This document shows positions 1 to 8,973 of a stretch of DNA of 64,000 nucleotides, piece by piece (the stretch's first letter is position 1; every line of letters starts with the position of its first letter). The stretch is from positions 9,829-73,828 of the forward strand of contig NZ_FAOZ01000008.1 in the NCBI RefSeq assembly GCF_001536285.1, in the 5' to 3' direction. The DNA is from Parafrankia irregularis (GTDB taxonomy: Bacteria; Actinomycetota; Actinomycetes; Frankiales; Frankiaceae). The notes beneath the pieces are model-generated. The model made no database searches. It worked only from the letters and a program-made list of their open reading frames with translations, and was not told where the DNA came from. The translations under genes were made by a program, and so were the position numbers.

Positions 1-1
1 C

Positions 2-55
2 CTCGGTGGCCTCGGTGGCCTCGGTGGCCTCGGTGGCCTCGGTGGCCTCGGTGGC
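2..55. repeat. 9-bp tandem repeat, six copies
   Basis: Six perfect head-to-tail copies of CTCGGTGGC begin at base 2. Just after them a weaker 9-base periodicity (a variable triplet followed by GCC GGT) continues to about base 115. The plus-strand frame that follows this periodicity meets stop codons near 108 and 115. The array probably continues to the left of the window. It looks like either the end of a gene for a tripeptide-repeat protein or non-coding satellite-like DNA. No function can be assigned. Confidence 0.8.
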
Positions 56-980
56 CAGCTCTCGCCGGTCGCGCCTGTAGCACCGGTTCTGCCGGTCCTC
101 GCTGGTAGTGCTTGGCCTTGTTCGTGTAGCTCGCCGTTCCTGCCTCTTGCGTCGGCTCCGCCGGTTATACCGATCCCAACGGCCCGCACCGGTCCCACGG
201 GGTTCTACGGGCCCACCTCGGTCGTGTCGAGTCCCGCGGCGCCGTGCCCGTCCCCGCGGTCTCCGGCCTGCCCGCTGGCCTGTCCGCCTGTGGTGCCAGG
301 TCGGTCTCGCCGCCCCGCATTGGTCCTGTCTCGACTCTGGGGCTGACTGCCGGCGCCGATACCGGTTCCGCGTCCGCCGGTCCTGTCGTCCGCGCTGTTC
401 TCGCCGGTTCCAGCCAGCCAGCTCATCCGCTCACCTACCCGCTCGCCCTCATACCCGCCTGGCCGCCCATTCCGCCGGATTCGTCGAACGGCGATGCGCT
501 GGCGCCGTGCGGGTTCCCGCTGGCCGCGCGCGATGTCCCGAACGGCCGGCTCTGCCGGTCCGCGCTGGCCTCGCCGGCAGCGATCCGCCGGTTCCGCCTC
601 GCAGACCCTGCGGATCTGTCGGCTCTGAGCGGTTCCTTTCGTGCCGGGCAGGCCGGTCCCGATGGCCCTGGTCAGGTTCCGTCCGGTTGACGGGCGGAGT
701 TCGGTCGGATGGCCGACCCGACCCGACCCGACCCGGACCCGGCCCGGTCGGGTCCGGGTCCGGACTCGGACTTTGAGCGTGGGCAGGTTCGTGCTCTCGC
801 GGACGGTCGGGATGATCCAGGCGCTGTTCATGGATAGACGGGCGATCGCCGGGCCGGGCTGGCCGATGGGCGCGCCTCAGGGAGTCGAGGACCGGTCAGG
901 ACTCTGAACGTGCCGGAGTCCCTGGCCTGCCTTTTGGCCTCTTCGAGGTCGCGGCGGCTGTTCCTGCGGATGGTGGCACC
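56..980. other. Low-complexity stretch without a convincing gene
   Basis: Several overlapping frames are open on both strands, but none looks like a known protein and their compositions (Arg/Pro/Ser rich) are typical of chance frames in GC-rich DNA. The plus frame from about 121 to 690 has the most coding-like third positions, and its predicted product is a proline/alanine/serine-rich chain without domains. A perfect hairpin lies at 730-760. I see no RNA gene here. Confidence 0.5.
730..760. terminator. Perfect 12-bp hairpin with 7-base loop
   Basis: GACCCGGACCCG (730-741) is followed by a 7-base loop and its exact reverse complement (749-760). It lies at the end of a (GACCC)n run and has no T-tract. 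Actinobacterial intrinsic terminators often lack a T-tract, so this may end a transcript coming from either side. It could also be just a by-product of the simple repeat. Confidence 0.4.
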
Positions 981-1562
981 ATGACCGCCATGCGTCTGGG
1001 CACCGCCGATCATCTCGGCTGGGCTGTGGCTGTCACGGCGACGGCGGACCATCAGGTCGTGGACCGTCGGCGGATCGAGCTGATCGAACCAGGCATGCCG
1101 GTGGCGCCGATCCACCATGCTGGCGGTCCTCACCAGCTCCACCGGCCGGGGGAGCCGCTGCGCGACACGGAACTCGCGGCCCTGGTGGCCGAGGTCCGCG
1201 CCTCAGCGGTCCGGGCCGCTTCGGCGGCCTTGGAGGAGCTGGCCGCAGCGGTGCCCGCACCGATCATCTCGCTCTCGCTGTGGACTTGGCCGGCCGGCTT
1301 CCCGGCCGACATCGCCGTGCAGCGACGCGTCCCGTACGAGAGCCGGGCCGACCCCATCATGTACCGGCAGGTGCTGGCAGACGTGGCGCGGAACCGCGGC
1401 TGGGCGATCCATCTCTACGACCCGAGAACTGTCGAGGCTGAAGCGATCCGCCTCCTGGGCGAGCGCGCGGACGAGGTGCTGCGCAGACCGCGGACGACGC
1501 TGGGGCCGCCCTGGGCGAAGGATCATCGGGTCGCCCTCGCGGCCACGATCGTGGCCGCGTGA
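981..1562 (+). CDS. Conserved actinobacterial hypothetical protein
   Basis: The 193-residue product starts MTAMRLGTADHLGWAVAV. The second ATG at 990 is an equally good start. The N-terminus reads like a beta-hairpin with an early acidic residue in a family of uncharacterised actinobacterial proteins that I recognise only by style (GWAVAVT, VVDRRRIEL, HHAGG). A helical middle (about 55-80) is followed by an alternating strand/helix region. There are no signal peptide, membrane segments or recognised catalytic motif. Codon use fits the host. It may be cargo of the integrated element or a resident gene; no function is assigned. Confidence 0.65.
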   Translation: MTAMRLGTADHLGWAVAVTATADHQVVDRRRIELIEPGMPVAPIHHAGGPHQLHRPGEPLRDTELAALVAEVRASAVRAASAALEELAAAVPAPIISLSLWTWPAGFPADIAVQRRVPYESRADPIMYRQVLADVARNRGWAIHLYDPRTVEAEAIRLLGERADEVLRRPRTTLGPPWAKDHRVALAATIVAA

Positions 1563-2372
1563 TCTCACCACTGGTGTGAGGTCCGTTCAGCTTCTGGGGG
1601 TGTCAGCAGAGCTTGCTGCGGAGGGACGCTGGCGGTGTGCCCAGCGCTTTCCTGTGCATGCTGGCGAAGCACAGCGTTGCAGGTCAGAGACCCAGTTGTG
1701 ATCGGGTCCTGCCGCTGGCGTACCGCTGCGGGCCGGACGGGTGGGGGGCGGCTGCACGGGTCGGCTGTGCGCGGCCGACTGCCCAGCGATCTTGCTGGGC
1801 AGGATGCGGTAGATCGTGCTGGCTTTCCGCTGGGCACGGTGTGGTGCGCTAGATCCGCCCGAATCCCTAGGCATCGGAAAGGGCGGCCCCATGTCCGCGA
1901 AACGATCTCTATTGTGTGAGCGCACAGCTGACGCCAGGCAGCGCGGGCCGCGTTGGCAACTTCCCGGGGCTGCTCCCGCCGGCCGTTCCCAGCATCCCTG
2001 CCCTGGGGCGGCGCACCCGTCCCGATCGTCACGCGGGCAGGCCACGCGAGGCTTGATCCGGCTGCCGGCTTGGGTCGATGGTCGCTCATGGCGCGACGCG
2101 GTGATCTTCGCCGGTCGCTCGCCGAGGGCCGGAGCTGCCTGCGACAGCGACGGGCGCCTGTGATCTTCGCGATGGACGCTGTCGCGTCGTTCAGCGATCA
2201 CCACCCGACTGGACTAGTTAATGGCACCATTTTTCCCTGTGAACGCACGTCGGACCATATTTTGATCTCTAATCCTGGTGGTCCGGTGGGTGGGCCCCAT
2301 TCCTACTAGTCGGGGAGTGTGGGCGGTGCTTTCTGGCGGTCCTCCGGGCCAATTTTCTTCCGTCATCCATCG

Positions 2373-2392
2373 AACAACTCTTCAACAACTCT
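2373..2392. repeat. Direct repeat of AACAACTCT spaced one helical turn
   Basis: Two identical 9-mers start at 2373 and 2384, 11 bp apart, so both face the same side of the helix. They lie about 20 bp upstream of the putative -35 box of the recombinase unit. This is a typical arrangement for a transcription-factor site, but no binding protein can be named. Confidence 0.4.
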
Positions 2393-2411
2393 GGAGATCG
2401 ACTGTCCGAAG

Positions 2412-2440
2412 TTGGCCTGAAAACCGGATTCATATATAGC
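2412..2440 (+). promoter_or_regulatory. Putative sigma-70-type promoter of the recombinase unit
   Basis: TTGGCC (2412-2417) could be the -35 box and TATAGC (2435-2440, inside TATATAGC) the -10 box, with a 17-bp spacer. The site stands in an AT-richer patch about 20 bases upstream of a strong AGGAGG ribosome site at 2461. This is inferred from sequence only. Confidence 0.4.
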
Positions 2441-2474
2441 GGCGTTTCGCGCCGCACGGAAGGAGGCCCGCCTC

Positions 2475-3299
2475 GTGACCGACCAGGCCCACACGAACGC
2501 CGACCGTCCCGGCTCCCGCCGCCCGCTGCGCGCGGTATCCCCTGCAGCACAGCAGCCAGATGGGCCGCAGCTCGCGCCAGCGCCCTCGGGGCCGCCGACG
2601 GTTCCCGCTGACCCGCCTCGCCCTGACGCGGCGGCGGGGGAGGAGTCCGGGTCCGGACCCGGTCCTATTCCTGGTCCTTCCTCGGACTCATCTGCGGGTG
2701 GGAATCCGCATCCAGCTCAGGCGGTGCTGTGTCCGCGGTCAATTCCCGGATCGGAGTATTTTCCGTGCTTCGCGGGTTCCCTTCCGGCCCGTCCGGGTGT
2801 TACTGTTTCTGTCAATGAGCCGGATACTGCCCCGTGCCCTGCTGGGAGCGGCTGCCCGATCCTGGCCTCCTCTGCCTCTGTCTGGTCCTTTCCTTCGGCG
2901 CCTGGAGGCTCTATGACGGCTGCCCGTCCCACCGGTCCCATCGACAACCCGGATGACAGCGGCGGGCCCCAGATCTCCCGGGCCGCCACCCGCCCCACGG
3001 CAAGCGAACAGGTCGCGCCGCCGGGGGGCACTTCAGCTGCGGAACCTCGCGGGCCGGTGGAGGCGCCGCCGGATGCGGAGGACACGGGGCGCCTCGCGCT
3101 TCCGCCTCCGACGAGGCCGGACGGTGGGAAGGGGCGGCCGGGTAGGCGGTGGGTGTTCCACGGAGAAGCCCAGACGATCAGTGGCCCGGAAGCCGAATGG
3201 ACATGGGCCAACTTGGCGGCCGTCACCCGCGATCTTCTGGTCTGGTCTGCCGGGGAACGGGCCGCTGATGGCGACACATCGGATGAGGAGGCAGCGTGA
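2475..3299 (+). CDS. Proline-rich protein translationally coupled to the recombinase
   Basis: The GTG start lies 8 bases after a strong AGGAGG. The 274-residue product is low-complexity Pro/Ala/Gly for most of its length. The last 50 residues (from RWVFHGEAQTISGP to the acidic tail) look like a folded, conserved segment. The stop overlaps the recombinase start as GTGA, so the two are probably translated together. Codons about 65-145 have lower third-position GC than the rest, so an alternative start is ATG 2913 with GGAGG just upstream, giving 128 residues. I do not recognise the family. A small partner of a serine integrase can be a recombination directionality factor, but that is only a guess here. 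Confidence 0.55.
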   Translation: MTDQAHTNADRPGSRRPLRAVSPAAQQPDGPQLAPAPSGPPTVPADPPRPDAAAGEESGSGPGPIPGPSSDSSAGGNPHPAQAVLCPRSIPGSEYFPCFAGSLPARPGVTVSVNEPDTAPCPAGSGCPILASSASVWSFPSAPGGSMTAARPTGPIDNPDDSGGPQISRAATRPTASEQVAPPGGTSAAEPRGPVEAPPDAEDTGRLALPPPTRPDGGKGRPGRRWVFHGEAQTISGPEAEWTWANLAAVTRDLLVWSAGERAADGDTSDEEAA

Positions 3300-5260
3300 T
3301 CGATCCTGGTCGTCCTTCCCGCGCGGCCGGGCCAGGCCGCCTGGGACCCGGGGCGGCGGATCCGGCGAACCCGGCACTGTCGGACCTGGCGGTATCCCCG
3401 TTCGCCATGCCGCTGTCGCTACTGCACGACGAGGTCCGGGTCGCGTTCGCCGGGCGGACCTCCACCGAGGAGCAGCAGGACCCCCGTCAGTCGCTCATCC
3501 GTCAGCTCGACCGGGCCAAGTCGGCGCTGCCCGCGTCGTGGGTGATCGTCGCGCACTACTACGACGTCGAGTCCGGCCGCAAGGAACTGCACGACCGTGG
3601 CCACGGAGCTGACGTATCCCGGTTCGACATCCCGATCCCTCGGGACGGCGGCATCGACGATCTTCTTGCCGAGGCCCCCCATCCGAACCGGCGGTTCGAC
3701 GTGGTGATCTGCGAGTCGATGTCGCGAATTGCCCGGCGGATGTTCGAGACACTGTCCATCGAACGTCAGCTCGAACGGGCCGGGGTTCCGCTGTTCGCCT
3801 GGAACGAGCCGATCAAGGTCGACGGGCCGCGGGCGTCGCAGATCCTGCAACGGAGGATCAACCAGTCCGTCGCCGAGTACGAGGTGTGGAACACCCTGGA
3901 GAGCTCCTGGGGTGGGCTGTGCACCCACGTCCGGGACGGTTGGAACATCGGCAAGCCGCCATATGGCTACCGGGCCAAGAGCTTCCGGCACCCGAACTCG
4001 GCCAAGGCCGACCGGGGAGCCACGAAGACCCGGCTCGAACCCGACGGGGCGCGCGGAGAGACCGTGACGCAGATCGCGCACTGGCGCTACTACCGCAAGC
4101 TCGGCTATGGAGCGATCGCCGAGCAGCTCAACACAGACCTGGAGCGCTACCCGCCACCCGAGCCGGTCGGCGGGGCCCACCAGGCCCGGGGCGCCTGGTC
4201 CAAGTCCACGGTGTCCGACCTGCTCCGTAACCCCAAGTACACCGGCTATCAGGTGTTCAACCGGCGGGCAAGCCGTTCTCGGCATGGAGCGGTCAACGGG
4301 CCGGAGAAGTGGGTCTGGTCAGCCCAACCCGTGCACGAGCCACTGATCCCCAAGTGGATGTTCGACGAGTTCAACGCCCAGCGGCAGAGCCGGCGGGGCT
4401 CTCGTCAGGGAAACGCCCTCAACACCCATCCCGCCACCCTGCGTACCTATGTCTTTCGGGGGATGGTGATCTGCACATGTGGGCGGCGTATGGCCGGCAA
4501 CCTCCGCCGGCCCGGCGACCCCGTGTACTACATCTGCTGGCCGAAGGCGAACAACCGGGGGCGTGAGGACAAGCTCTCCGAACATCCCAAGACGGTCCGC
4601 ATACGCGAGGATGTGCTCCTCGGTGCCATTACGGATTTTTACGCCGAACGGGTGTTCGGGCGCAGCCGTGTGGCGCTGCTGACCGCTGACCTCGCGACCT
4701 ACGACGATCGAGCGGCCCAGGAACGGGCTGCCGCTAGAAGCAGGCTCCAACGGAAGATCGATGATCTTGGTCGTAGGCAGGGCAACATCCTGCGTCAGGC
4801 GCAGGACGGTGATCCCGCCGATCCGTTCACGCAGGGGCTAAGGCGTAACTACAACGACCTCGATGCCGAACGAACCGCCGCAGTCGCTCAGATCGAAGAT
4901 CTTGATGTAGCTGACGAGGCTGAACCGGACCGGCCTGGGCCCGACAGCTTGCGACTCCTCGACGCGCTTCCGACGCTTCAGGTCAAGCTTGGTCAGGCGC
5001 CCGAGGAGCTACAGCGACGTCTCTATGAGATCACGCAGCTCACCGTCCATGTCGACCACGAGAGTCAAGAGGTCCTGATGATGATCAGAATTCCAGAGGT
5101 CAACCTTGATCAGGTAGCCGGTCTGGCGGGGGTCGTCGCCGACGGCGCTGCCCCACGTGCAGCGATCCCGCGATCTCATCGCCGCGTGGATGCTGTACGT
5201 GCCCCCGGCAGGATTCGAACCTGCGCACCCGCCTCCGGAGGGCGGTGCTCTATCCCCTGA
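3296..5260 (+). CDS. Large serine recombinase (site-specific integrase)
   Basis: This 654-residue protein has the layout of large serine integrases. A resolvase-type catalytic domain spans about 48-205, with the nucleophile Ser56 in GRTSTEE and the conserved SRIARRMFE helix. The recombinase domain (about 220-360) begins KPPYGYRAK. A zinc-ribbon segment (CTCGRRMAGN through YYICW) spans about 398-425, and a charged coiled coil covers about 475-560. GTG 3296 has GAGGAGG 5 bases upstream and overlaps the previous gene; ATG 3407 is an alternative start. The last 20 or so codons are the antisense of the tRNA-Arg gene, so the C-terminal tail was created by, or is shared with, the integration site. 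It probably inserts and excises the element to its left. Confidence 0.93.
   Translation: MIDPGRPSRAAGPGRLGPGAADPANPALSDLAVSPFAMPLSLLHDEVRVAFAGRTSTEEQQDPRQSLIRQLDRAKSALPASWVIVAHYYDVESGRKELHDRGHGADVSRFDIPIPRDGGIDDLLAEAPHPNRRFDVVICESMSRIARRMFETLSIERQLERAGVPLFAWNEPIKVDGPRASQILQRRINQSVAEYEVWNTLESSWGGLCTHVRDGWNIGKPPYGYRAKSFRHPNSAKADRGATKTRLEPDGARGETVTQIAHWRYYRKLGYGAIAEQLNTDLERYPPPEPVGGAHQARGAWSKSTVSDLLRNPKYTGYQVFNRRASRSRHGAVNGPEKWVWSAQPVHEPLIPKWMFDEFNAQRQSRRGSRQGNALNTHPATLRTYVFRGMVICTCGRRMAGNLRRPGDPVYYICWPKANNRGREDKLSEHPKTVRIREDVLLGAITDFYAERVFGRSRVALLTADLATYDDRAAQERAAARSRLQRKIDDLGRRQGNILRQAQDGDPADPFTQGLRRNYNDLDAERTAAVAQIEDLDVADEAEPDRPGPDSLRLLDALPTLQVKLGQAPEELQRRLYEITQLTVHVDHESQEVLMMIRIPEVNLDQVAGLAGVVADGAAPRAAIPRSHRRVDAVRAPGRIRTCAPASGGRCSIP
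5200..5245. other. Inferred right attachment site in the tRNA 3' half
   Basis: The recombinase frame runs out of the element into the 3' half of tRNA-Arg and stops inside it. Since the tRNA is intact, the crossover probably lies in its 3' half, where the element restores the gene. The exact core and the partner copy at the left end cannot be seen in this window. Confidence 0.35.
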
Positions 5261-5271
5261 GCTACGGGGGC
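5200..5271 (-). tRNA. tRNA-Arg (anticodon CCG)
   Basis: On the minus strand the sequence folds into a full cloverleaf. The acceptor GCCCCCG pairs with CGGGGGC, the D arm is GCTC/GAGC, the anticodon stem CCGCC/GGCGG carries loop CTCCGGA (anticodon CCG), and the T arm is GCAGG-TTCGAAT-CCTGC. The discriminator is A, and CCA is not encoded. It reads CGG arginine codons, which are common in this GC-rich genome. Its 3' end faces the serine recombinase gene, which overlaps it in the opposite direction. Confidence 0.97.
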
Positions 5272-5344
5272 TCCAGGGCAACGAGGCATACCGTACCAGG
5301 TGGGATCGGCAGACTGTGCAACCCGGTGCCCGTAAGCTTCGCCC

Positions 5345-5731
5345 GTGTACTTCAGCGCCCCCCGCGTGCTCGTCGTGGACGACGACGCCGTGATCCGTCA
5401 GCTCGTGGTCGTCAACCTCGAACTGGAAGGTTTCGAGGTGCACACCGCTGTCGACGGTGCTGACTGCCTCGAGCGGGTCCATGAGATCGCGCCGCAAGTG
5501 ATCACGCTGGACATCATGATGCCGCGGGTGAACGGCTGGGACGTCGCCGCGCGGCTGCGTGACGACCCGGCGACGGCCGGCATCAAGGTGATCATGCTTA
5601 CCGCGCGTGCGCAGGAGGCCGACGTCAAACGCGGTGCGCGCCTCGGCGTGGACTACTACCTGACGAAGCCGTTCGACCCCGATCTGCTGATCGGAGTGGT
5701 CAGCCGCCTCGCGGCGGGCCAGCCGGTCTGA
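5345..5731 (+). CDS. Stand-alone response-regulator receiver protein
   Basis: The product is 128 residues, the size of one receiver domain and nothing more. It has the acidic cluster VDDD near residue 12, the phospho-acceptor Asp56 in TLDIMMP, Thr86 in LTAR and Lys108 in LTKPF. There is no output domain, so it would act by protein contact, as CheY/DivK-like proteins do. The GTG start at 5345 gives the usual short lead to the first beta strand. No histidine kinase is nearby, so its partner is unknown. Confidence 0.9.
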   Translation: MYFSAPRVLVVDDDAVIRQLVVVNLELEGFEVHTAVDGADCLERVHEIAPQVITLDIMMPRVNGWDVAARLRDDPATAGIKVIMLTARAQEADVKRGARLGVDYYLTKPFDPDLLIGVVSRLAAGQPV

Positions 5732-5953
5732 GGTCCGGCTCCGGTAGCGGGGGTCGGCGCGGATGCCGGCGGCGCGGCGGGGGCTGGTGCCGGCGTGTCC
5801 TTCCGTGACCTTCCTGAAGACGCCACCGACTGCGCGCGGAAGGTATCCAGCGGGCGCTGCCTGGGGCGATGCCGAACGGGGCGCGGCACCCTTCGCCGCC
5901 CGGTCCGTACGCGCGGCGACCGGATTGGGCGGGCGCGCCGATAGCATCGCGAC

Positions 5954-7654
5954 ATGACCCCCGCCGAGCTGGCCGACTCCATCGTCGCGGCCGTTCGTGA
6001 TGCCGTCGCAGGCGGAGAGCTTGATGTGCCCGTGCCCACCACGGTCACGATCGAGCGCCCGCGGCAACCAGAGCACGGTGACTACGCGTCGCCGGTCGCC
6101 ATGCAGCTGGCGAAGGCGGCCCGCCGCCCGCCCCGGCAGGTGGCCGAGCTTCTCGCGGCGCGCCTGCGAACGAACCCGGGCGTGGCGGAGGTCGAGGTGG
6201 CCGGGCCCGGCTTCCTGAACATCCGGCTCGCCGGCGCCGCCCTCGGCGGGATCGCGCAGGCCGTCGTCCGTGGCGGTGCGGCCTACGGCCGTGCGACCAC
6301 GCCTCGGGGCCTGCGGGTGAACCTGGAGTTCGTCAGTGCGAACCCCACCGGTCCGGTGACGCTGGCGTCCACACGCTGGGCGTCGGTCGGTGACGCGCTG
6401 GCCCGGGTGCTGGCGGCGGCCGGCTACGAGGTCGGCACCGAGTACTACGTGAACGACGCCGGAGTGCAGGTCGAGCGGTTCGGGGCGTCGATCCTGGCCG
6501 CGCTGCGCGGCGAGCCCGCGCCCGAGAACGGGTACCACGGCGCCTATGTCGCCGAGATCGCCACGCGGGTCGTGGCGGCGAACCCCGGCCTGGAGCAGCT
6601 CGTCGCCGGGTCCGGTGGCCAGGTGGCGGATGAGAAGGCGCTCGCGGTCTGCGCTCGCGACGGCGTCGAGATGATGCTCGCGGAAATCCGTTCGACGCTG
6701 GCCGGCTTCGGGGTCGAGTTCGATCTGTGGAAGTCGGAGCGGAGCCTGCACGAGGCCGGCGAGCTGACCGCGGCCATCGAGGAGCTCCGGGCGAAGGGGC
6801 ACGTCTTCGACGCGGACGGCGCGGTCTGGCTGCGCACCACCGACTTCGGCGACGACAAGGACCGCGCCCTGGTCAAGAGCGACGGGCACCCGACCTACTT
6901 CTGCGCCGACGCGGCCTACTACCGGGACAAGCGCCGCCGTGGGTTCGACCGGCTCTGCTACCTGCTGGGCGCTGACCACCACGGTTACATCGGGCGGCTG
7001 CGCGCGATCGCGGCGTGCTTCGGTGACGATCCCGAGCAGACACTGGATGTGATCATTGGCCAGCTGGTGACCCTGTCGCGGGGCGGGGTGGCCGTGAAGA
7101 TGTCCAAGCGTGCCGGCACGTTCCTGACACTGCACGACCTGGTGGATGCGGTCGGCGTCGACGCGGCGCGGTACTCGTTGGTCCGGGCGTCGATGGATTC
7201 GTCGCTCGACCTCGACCTCGACGTGATCGCGCGGCAGACCAACGACAACCCGGTCTTCTATGTCCAGTACGCACATGCCCGGATCAGCTCGCTGATCCGC
7301 AATGCGGCCGCGCTGGGCCTGGCGACCTCCGCCGATCCGGCGTTCGACGTCGAGGCGGTCGACGTGTCGCTGCTCACCCATCAGCGGGAGGTGGAGCTTC
7401 TCGGGGCGCTGGGTGAGCTGCCGCGGGTGATCGAGTCGGCGGCCGCCCTGCGGGCGCCGCACCGCATCGCCCGGTATCTGGAGGAGCTGGCCGGGACGTA
7501 CCACCGCTTCTACGACTCCTGCCGCGTGCTGCCCCAGGGCGACGAGGAGGCGACGGCGCTGACGGCCGCCCGGCTGTTGCTGGTCGAGGCGACCCGGGTC
7601 GTCCTCGCGAACGGGCTGCATCTGCTCGGCGTCGGCGCGCCGGAACGGATGTGA
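5954..7654 (+). CDS. argS: Arginyl-tRNA synthetase with altered HIGH signature
   Basis: The 566-residue class I synthetase charges tRNA-Arg in the cytoplasm. The N-terminal Add-1 domain (about 1-110) is followed by the catalytic fold with SANPTGP and the ADHHGYI segment, the KMSKR loop at 382-386, and the C-terminal anticodon-binding helical domain ending in [10 protein letters not shown]. Colinearity with the mycobacterial enzyme is clear. The oddity is residues 136-139, where the usual HIGH-type H-[IV]-G-[GH] is replaced by TLAS, removing the ATP-binding histidine and glycine. It is either a divergent active form or a non-canonical paralogue. The next gene, hom, follows immediately; lysA, present here in Mycobacterium, is missing. 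Confidence 0.93.
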
Positions 7655-7659
7655 GGCGA

Positions 7660-8973
7660 ATGACGATCGACGGGGGGCGTCCGCGCCCGATGAGAATCGC
7701 GATGCTCGGCTGCGGCGTCGTCGGCACCGAGGTGGTGCGTCTGCTGCGCACGCATGCCGACGACCTGGCCGCCAGGGTCGGCGCTCCGCTGGAGATCGCC
7801 GGAATCGCTGTCCGTGACCCCGACCGGGTCCGCGGGATCGCGGTCGACCGGGCGTTGCTCACCACCGATCCCGGCGCGCTGGTCGCCCGGGATGACATCG
7901 ACATCGTGATCGAGGTCGTCGGCGGCATCGAGCCCGCACGCAGCTGGCTGCTCGCCGCGCTGCAGTCCGGGAAATCCGTGGTCAGCGCGAACAAGGCGCT
8001 GCTCGCGACGCACGGTTCGCTGCTGCACGACGCGGCGGCCGCCGCGGGTGTCGACCTGTACTACGAGGCCGCGGTGGCGGGCGCGATCCCGCTGCTGCGG
8101 CCACTGCGCGAAAGCCTCGCGGGGGACCGGATCCGCCGTGTCCTCGGCATCGTCAACGGCACGACGAACTACATCCTCACCCGGATGGACGAGACCGGTG
8201 CCTCCTTCGACGACGCGCTGGCCGAGGCCGGCGCGCTCGGGTATGCGGAGGCTGATCCGTCCGCGGACATCGACGGCTTCGACGCCGCCGCCAAGGCGGC
8301 GATCATCGCGCAGCTCGCGTTCCACACCCGGGTAACCATCGACGATGTCTACCGGGAGGGCATCCGCGGGGTGACCGCCGCCGACATCGCCAGCGCCCGT
8401 GAGCTCGGCTGCACGGTGAAGGCCCTCGTGATCGCCGAGCGCGCCGGCGACCGGCCGGGCATCAGCCTGCGGGTCCACCCGGCGATGATTCCCCGTTCGC
8501 ATCCACTCGCCGGTGTGCGCGAGGCGTTCAACGCGGTCTTCGTCGAGGCCGAGGCCGCCGGGCAGCTCATGTTCTACGGCCGCGGGGCGGGCGGCGCGCC
8601 GACCGCCTCGGCGGTCCTCGGTGACGTGGTCGCGGTCGCCCGCAACCGCATCGCGGGCCGACAGGGTCCGGGGGAGTCCGCGTACGCGGCGCTGCCGGTC
8701 CTGCCGATGGGGCCGACGGTCACCAGCTACCACCTGCAGCTCGACGTCACGGACAAGGCGGGTGTGCTGGCGTCGGTGGCCGGTGCGTTCGCCCGGCACG
8801 ATGTCTCCATCAGAAGTGTTCGTCAGGACGGCCGTGGCGACGACGCCAGCCTCGTCCTGGTCACCCATCCGGCCGCGGACGCGGCGCTGTCCGCGACCGT
8901 CGAGGACCTACGTGTCCTCGACGGGGTACGGGCAGTGTCAGGCGTGGTACGGGTCGAGGGAGTTGAGTCATGA
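7660..8973 (+). CDS. hom: Homoserine dehydrogenase
   Basis: This enzyme reduces aspartate semialdehyde to homoserine for threonine and methionine synthesis. The NAD(P)-binding motif GCGVVG is close to the N-terminus. The catalytic region carries [23 protein letters not shown] and [18 protein letters not shown]-terminal ACT domain (about 345-425, [15 protein letters not shown]) is the expected site of threonine feedback control. ATG 7660 has GAGG just upstream; GTG 7651, which overlaps the argS stop, and ATG 7690 are alternatives. Its end overlaps thrC as ATGA, so hom-thrC-thrB are one translationally coupled unit. Confidence 0.95.

Follow-up and report, generated by a model that had tools for sequence, protein, structure and literature searches.

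A probable housekeeping arginyl-tRNA synthetase with TLAS in place of the HIGH signature in the Frankia group

The window analyzed here is a 64,000-nucleotide stretch of the genome of Parafrankia irregularis; the features around its argS gene, which encodes an arginyl-tRNA synthetase (ArgRS), are collected in Table 1. The preliminary description found the loss of the HIGH signature striking in an ArgRS encoded beside a tRNA-Arg gene. However, this adjacency is conserved synteny: of 25 loci scanned, among which L011 and L053 represent one gene, 23 have a tRNA-Arg gene close to argS, including 8 of 10 loci of ArgRSs that keep the signature histidine (H-type). Because the neighbor is also present at H-type loci, it is uninformative about the variant. 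The 3' end of the recombinase-like ORF overlaps the tRNA-Arg(CCG) gene, and this ORF may be part of an integrated element using that tRNA gene; no repeat of the tRNA-Arg end was found within window positions 1 to 5900. A tRNA-Ala predicted by ARAGORN inside argS (6615-6710) is probably spurious, being missing from the other scanned loci, even from the 99% identical L003. At the window edge (positions 1 to 63) there is a short 9-base tandem repeat, CCTCGGTGG.

Table 1. Features of the argS locus, in window coordinates
Feature	Position	Strand	Basis
Recombinase-like ORF, 654 aa	3296-5260	+	Best NCBIfam match XisF, below cutoff
tRNA-Arg(CCG), a common argS neighbor, about 0.7 kb upstream	5199..5271	-	ARAGORN; locus scan
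argS, ArgRS of 566 aa, T-type (TLAS)	5954..7654	+	ORF, TIGR00456, Pfam domains, fold match
NPTGP, residues 130-134, strand-loop ahead of the signature, retained	6341..6355	+	Alignment
TLAS, residues 136-139, replacing HIGG/HIGH, start of helix 137-155	6359..6370	+	Alignment; AlphaFold helix
GADHHGY, residues 339-345, catalytic-core block, retained	6968..6988	+	Alignment
KMSKR, residues 382-386, second class I signature, intact	7097..7111	+	Sequence, alignment
Homoserine dehydrogenase ORF, overlaps the argS end by 4 bases as listed	7651..8973	+	ORF list

Judged from its sequence, the encoded protein is an ArgRS by every feature tested save the textbook signature of its class. It scores 373.1 bits against the TIGR00456 profile (cutoff, 261.65), and the N-terminal, class I (R) catalytic, and DALR anticodon domains follow one another in this order, all above their Pfam cutoffs (PF03485, 86.1 bits; PF00750, 46.7 bits; PF05746, 117.9 bits). 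The best PF00750 stretch spans residues 270 to 404 alone, without the HIGH half. The KMSK signature is present as KMSKR and the GADHHGY block is in place, in agreement with the preliminary statement that KMSKR and the rest are intact. The class I signature proper, with His first and Gly third (HxGH or HxGG), is absent: as the preliminary description had it, within positions 6350 to 6385, residues 136 to 139 read TLAS (codons ACG CTG GCG TCC). The consensus of relatives at this place is NPTGP-x-H[IL]G[GH]-xRW, and canonical relatives with HIGG, HLGG, or HLGH align with the window ArgRS without a gap across the signature. The loss had been described against a pattern H-[IV]-G-[GH]; the fourth residue in the nearest H-type relatives is usually Gly rather than His (HIGG/HLGG); the true losses are therefore the first His and the third Gly.

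The distribution of this variant was assessed in an alignment of ORFs that matched at least query positions 40 to 540 with at least 45% identity, identical proteins being used once. Among the resulting 205 rows, four genes turned out to be represented twice with different trimming, which leaves 201 distinct full-length actinobacterial ArgRS genes in a sample weighted towards the relatives of the query. At position 136, 174 of them have His (H-type) and 27 have Thr (T-type). All distinct H-type genes (178 rows) have both His 136 and Gly 138, with no exception. The T-type genes comprise 25 with TLAS, one with TLAG (L043, from genome G156), and one with TLGS (L063, from Blastococcus sp. CT_GayMR19), so that the third residue is Ala in 26 and Gly in one. 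A sequencing or assembly error is refuted as the source of the variant, since all 24 full-length genes of the main T-type clade, from 24 genomes, share TLAS with varied synonymous codons. Outside the family, T-type genes account for 2 of 98 and 1 of 77 ArgRS genes from two genome sets. In a peptide search of 393 genomes, for which the best 30 matches were read as loci, ranks 1 to 23 were family genes already read and ranks 24 to 30 were two known T-type rows and five H-type rows; lower ranks may hide further T-types, because the known TLAG row of G156 lies well under rank 30.

The T-type signature appears to have arisen more than once. In the full tree, which includes the four doubled genes, 24 of the 27 T-type genes group together as the Frankia clade (SH-aLRT, 100), and the remaining three rows (L228, with TLAS, from genome G048; L043; and L063) are placed among H-type relatives. 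This tree needs four changes between H and T, three of which are forced by well-supported branches. When the four signature residues were masked (44 of the 205 rows), four changes were again needed, and all were forced; a tree with all T-types in one clade had a log likelihood 262 lower and was rejected by the AU test on the same rows (p-AU, 9e-65). Both trees derive from the 205-row set, and the exact place of L228 is unsure because it sits on a long branch and shifts between the two trees. The preliminary description had offered a lineage-specific change as one possibility. This fits the Frankia clade, in which TLAS is fixed, but the change is not confined there, since the tree needs three more origins. 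From the CAC codon of the nearest H-type rows, a Thr codon (ACN) is two base changes away. TLGS and TLAG look like partial steps in the alignment, with Thr constant and Ala and Ser variable.

Gene conversion of a very short tract from Frankia would be another source of the scattered T-type rows, and in a 60-base window over the motif, identity to Frankia does rise (for L063, 0.78 to 0.88 versus 0.80 to 0.82 to its own family). Over the whole gene, however, L063 and L043 are closer to their own relatives than to Frankia, and L228 is about equally distant from all (0.68 to 0.72). The codons of the motif also differ, and the Blastococcus copy retains Gly, so that conversion is not supported.

The preliminary description proposed looking for a second argS. 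None was found by protein search or by TIGR00456 profile search in the window genome, which is 9.5 Mb in size and 99.7% complete and falls within the Frankia group (nearest named relative, Frankia nepalensis; 75% identical). A weak second match in this genome is an isoleucyl-tRNA synthetase (IleRS) and not a second argS. The 35 family genomes divide into 24 whose argS is full length with TLAS, 2 in which it is full length with HIGG or HLGG (G019 and G021), and 9 with a shortened gene. In 20 of the first 24, the profile search found no other ArgRS. A missed second ArgRS is unlikely, because 18 of these 20 genomes are at least 90% complete and four (G006, G010, G028, and G031) are recorded as single contigs. 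Likewise, no other ArgRS above the cutoff was found in the genomes of the three outlying T-type rows (Blastococcus, TLGS; G156, TLAG, 86% complete; G048, TLAS, 72% complete); G156 has one further fragment match, of 19 bits, in an ORF of 830 residues. In a different genome, that of L037 (a full HLGG ArgRS and the row nearest the TLAG gene), we observed a second ORF of actinobacterial-type ArgRS (L295/L306; G127:C203:2178-3491), which has 441 aa and HIGG and is 53% identical to the query.

Apart from the signature, the T-type proteins look like ordinary ArgRSs. Columns were taken as near invariant if at least 98% conserved in H-type ArgRS; T-type rows retain 98 of the 101 such columns, with the same result on the 201 genes. 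The three lost columns are positions 136 and 138 and V160, the last being lost solely in three related T-type rows (L012, L013, and L019). Conversely, 18 columns have a residue that is almost uniform across the Frankia TLAS clade and seldom found in H-type genes; three of these belong to the motif, and another is the start residue. None of the other 14 is present in all three outlying rows, and thus no compensating change common to all origins was found; seven of them, including F390, are common to L063 only. Constraint is likewise ordinary. For 19 TLAS pairs, dN/dS is 0.09 to 0.29, versus 0.13 to 0.31 in 5 H-type control pairs; within the TLAS pairs it is 0.08 to 0.30 in the catalytic part and 0.07 to 0.28 in the rest. 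Because they were chosen by hand among near relatives and share sequences, these pairs are not independent tests. The seven of these 19 pairs in which a genome also has a second ArgRS show no relaxation either (0.09 to 0.27). Since TLAS genes beside a second ArgRS are equally constrained, constraint alone is no proof of a charging role.

An AlphaFold model of the window ArgRS, built on a 41-row alignment, has a mean pLDDT of 93.6 and a pTM of 0.91, and in it helix 137-155 begins at the signature. The 15 best-ranked PDB matches to the model are all ArgRSs, led by that of Campylobacter jejuni (3fnr; Z score, 39.9; rmsd, 2.0; 443 residues aligned). Thus, an ArgRS fold is predicted with high confidence, though a fold match by itself is no sign of activity.

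A second, distant ArgRS is present in 13 of the 33 TLAS-lineage genomes (24 with a full-length gene and 9 with a remnant); its signature is HVGH in all 12 copies read, the copy in G024 being the thirteenth. In four genomes (G012, G015, G016, and G029), it exists beside a full-length TLAS gene and may be a recent arrival. The other nine (G008, G022 to G027, G030, and G032; loci L163 to L171) have shortened argS genes whose open frames span 313 to 475 residues (for G023, as far as the retrieved sequence extends). The N-terminal and anticodon parts persist in these remnants, and no intact copy of the core blocks NDxG, WLRTT, GDDKDR, GADHHGY, or MSKRAG was found in any of the nine. An altered stretch near the KMSK loop is still present in G024 and G025, and TLAS-like letters are left in three remnants (TLAS in G008, TVAS in G022, and TLAA in G025). 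All nine genomes hold a second ArgRS above the TIGR00456 cutoff, with HVGH in eight of the nine, namely, those read. In a tree built from the parts that the genes have in common, the remnants branch at three separate points within the TLAS clade; the catalytic core was lost three times there, each time with a second ArgRS present. The arrival of a second ArgRS is not enough to end the TLAS gene, because four genomes keep that gene whole beside it. The dN/dS of the remnants (0.24 to 0.46 in 8 pairs) is looser than that of full-length genes, yet not free. G008 contains, in addition to its 356-aa remnant and a full second ArgRS, a third, broken-up stretch that matches TIGR00456 in pieces (G008:C1:587700-591544).

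The remnants resemble NrtL (NF045898), and the five that were scored lie below the cutoff of that profile. Of 197 genomes searched, 13 exceed this cutoff, and the over-cutoff genomes seen in the list belong to one group (f18), which we take to be Streptomyces. In the NrtL sequences read, the signature stretch is largely gone and the catalytic core is absent; core loss is therefore probably not special to TLAS, and a repeated birth of NrtL-like proteins from argS remnants is possible. It might be argued that the window protein is itself a catalytically dead or moonlighting paralogue of this kind and that another protein charges tRNA-Arg. It matches NF045898 (268.8 bits, below the cutoff of 340), and some relatives do have core-less remnants. 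However, its genome has no other ArgRS that we could find, its catalytic core and KMSKR are retained, and its catalytic part is constrained about as much as the rest of the gene, which makes a dead or moonlighting protein very improbable. The same absence of another ArgRS and the same retained core speak against the paralogue with another job that the preliminary description had considered.

Because it has no genomic rival, retains the other near-invariant residues, and is under ordinary constraint, the window argS is best read as a housekeeping gene. Comparison favors the active variant among the possibilities first proposed: most likely, the protein is a functional housekeeping enzyme in which a recurrent natural variant replaces HIGH, and not a paralogue. 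The "essential" signature histidine can apparently be replaced, since the TLAS enzyme is the sole ArgRS found in most TLAS relatives and a like change arose several times. We give a probability of about 0.8 to the joint reading that the gene encodes the housekeeping ArgRS, that HIGH became TLAS on the branch leading to the Frankia group, with a like change in three other actinobacterial lineages, and that the enzyme activates arginine. The change on the Frankia stem is matched elsewhere by H to T in three lineages and by G to A in two of the three, and according to this reading the enzyme would activate arginine and charge tRNA-Arg at a useful rate. The hydroxyl of Thr136, together with Thr132 and the KMSK lysines, would hold the ATP phosphates that His otherwise contacts, a role that Thr may also have in the TIGN of TrpRS, and Ala138 would be tolerated against the adenine through a slight movement of the helix tip like that reported for IleRS2. 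We take Thr132 to correspond to the threonine preceding HIGH in TyrRS. TrpRS usually has T at the first signature position, where it did not displace another residue within that family, and by analogy with its TIGN, Thr136 probably substitutes for the first histidine.

Several points run counter to an active TLAS enzyme. According to one report, the first His of the class I signature stabilizes the transition state during activation, and in several class I enzymes mutating it lowers activation about 1,000-fold (PMC10485003). In addition, no compensating change is shared by all origins, and in 9 of the 13 lineage genomes with a second ArgRS the native catalytic core has been lost, as could be expected of a weak T-type enzyme.

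Why TLAS arose is a separate matter, and there are two candidate explanations, which the evidence does not separate. (i) TLAS may have been selected for weaker binding of a natural inhibitor mimicking ATP or arginyl-adenylate, much as GXHH weakens that of mupirocin in IleRS2, the enzyme remaining the housekeeping ArgRS; we regard this as quite unlikely. The replacement of two otherwise invariant residues is recurrent and nearly identical, 13 of the 33 lineage genomes have a second ArgRS, and the IleRS of the family carries GXHH, which PMC10485003 describes as a signature of mupirocin hyper-resistance in IleRS2. GXHH is present in 29 of 30 family IleRS loci read (GAHH in 26, GTHH in 2, and GVHH in 1; the thirtieth is off the pattern); the second residue is thus mostly Ala, which is absent from the list in that paper (PMC10485003). 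The sole IleRS above the cutoff in the window genome has GAHH and lies outside the window, at G000:C28:42117-44738 (L346 and L377; relatives, L347 to L376). On the other hand, a search of titles and abstract openings found no natural inhibitor directed at ArgRS, and G019 combines a GTHH IleRS with a HIGG ArgRS, so that the ArgRS and IleRS changes are separate events that did not arise together. That TLAS is a target-site resistance evolved four times against a natural ArgRS inhibitor, as the ArgRS counterpart of GXHH IleRS2 in a family with both signatures, is an unlikely proposal. (ii) As a simpler alternative, TLAS could be weaker but sufficient in slow growers, fixed without positive selection and later replaced by a canonical ArgRS, an explanation that is doubtful but deserves somewhat more weight. 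An argument from slow growth is made for IleRS2 in PMC10485003, and the three core losses are nested in the TLAS clade, all nine genomes having a second ArgRS above the cutoff. Yet H to T takes two base changes, and each of the four origins arrived at T, a pattern that speaks against free drift; the full-length genes show no relaxation of dN/dS, and core loss seems to have occurred outside the TLAS clade too, in the NrtL of group f18.

If TLAS is a housekeeping variant as we propose, the initial His and the Gly of the HIGH signature, regarded as near-absolute requirements of class I enzymes, are both naturally replaced here, in what is seemingly the only enzyme for arginine incorporation, and the same first residue is found each time the replacement recurs in another lineage. 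The preliminary description held that presence as the sole ArgRS in many relatives, with normal activity, would make TLAS a known family variation. By its presence as the only ArgRS found in 20 of 24 genomes it is a family variation, but no prior description was found: a search of titles and abstract openings in the open-licence literature returned no report of an ArgRS without the HIGH histidine and no Frankia example. Pairs of HIGG and TLAS enzymes are ready material for testing the role of the signature histidine, and motif-based annotation could wrongly label TLAS enzymes as dead. Should the resistance explanation be true, a class I synthetase would work without His and without Gly in HIGH, and the trait would be a pointer to an unknown antibiotic.

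The window enzyme shares with canonical ArgRS (TIGR00456/PF00750; nearest solved structure, 3fnr) the fold, the N-terminal domain, the catalytic core, KMSK, the DALR domain, and 98 of 101 near-invariant columns, and it differs in having T for the first H, A for the third G, and no signature His. NrtL, an ArgS-related anticodon-binding protein, has N- and C-terminal parts related to those of actinobacterial ArgRS, but the NrtL sequences read lack the catalytic core that the window protein has. In IleRS2, as in the T-type ArgRSs, the first and third residues were rewritten naturally and repeatedly with the housekeeping role kept. The Gly of HIGH makes room for the adenine, and in the G/AXHH motif of IleRS2 the third residue is shifted by 1.7 A and can be bulkier than Gly; the His moves to this third position, where a ring nitrogen replaces the first His (PMC10485003). 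TLAS, in contrast, has no His and is not known to confer a resistance phenotype, and the third residue of the T-type rows is never His (Ala in 26 of 27 and Gly in one). TrpRS has TIGN at the same place and is a working enzyme, as stated in PMC10201369, which indicates that Thr can occupy the first position of a class I synthetase signature. It belongs to a separate family, and it keeps Gly and has Asn fourth; the T-type ArgRSs share its Thr, only the TLGS row has the Gly, and none has the Asn. As read from the alignments, TLAS is thus a signature without any His that joins a TrpRS-like first Thr to a third residue other than Gly.
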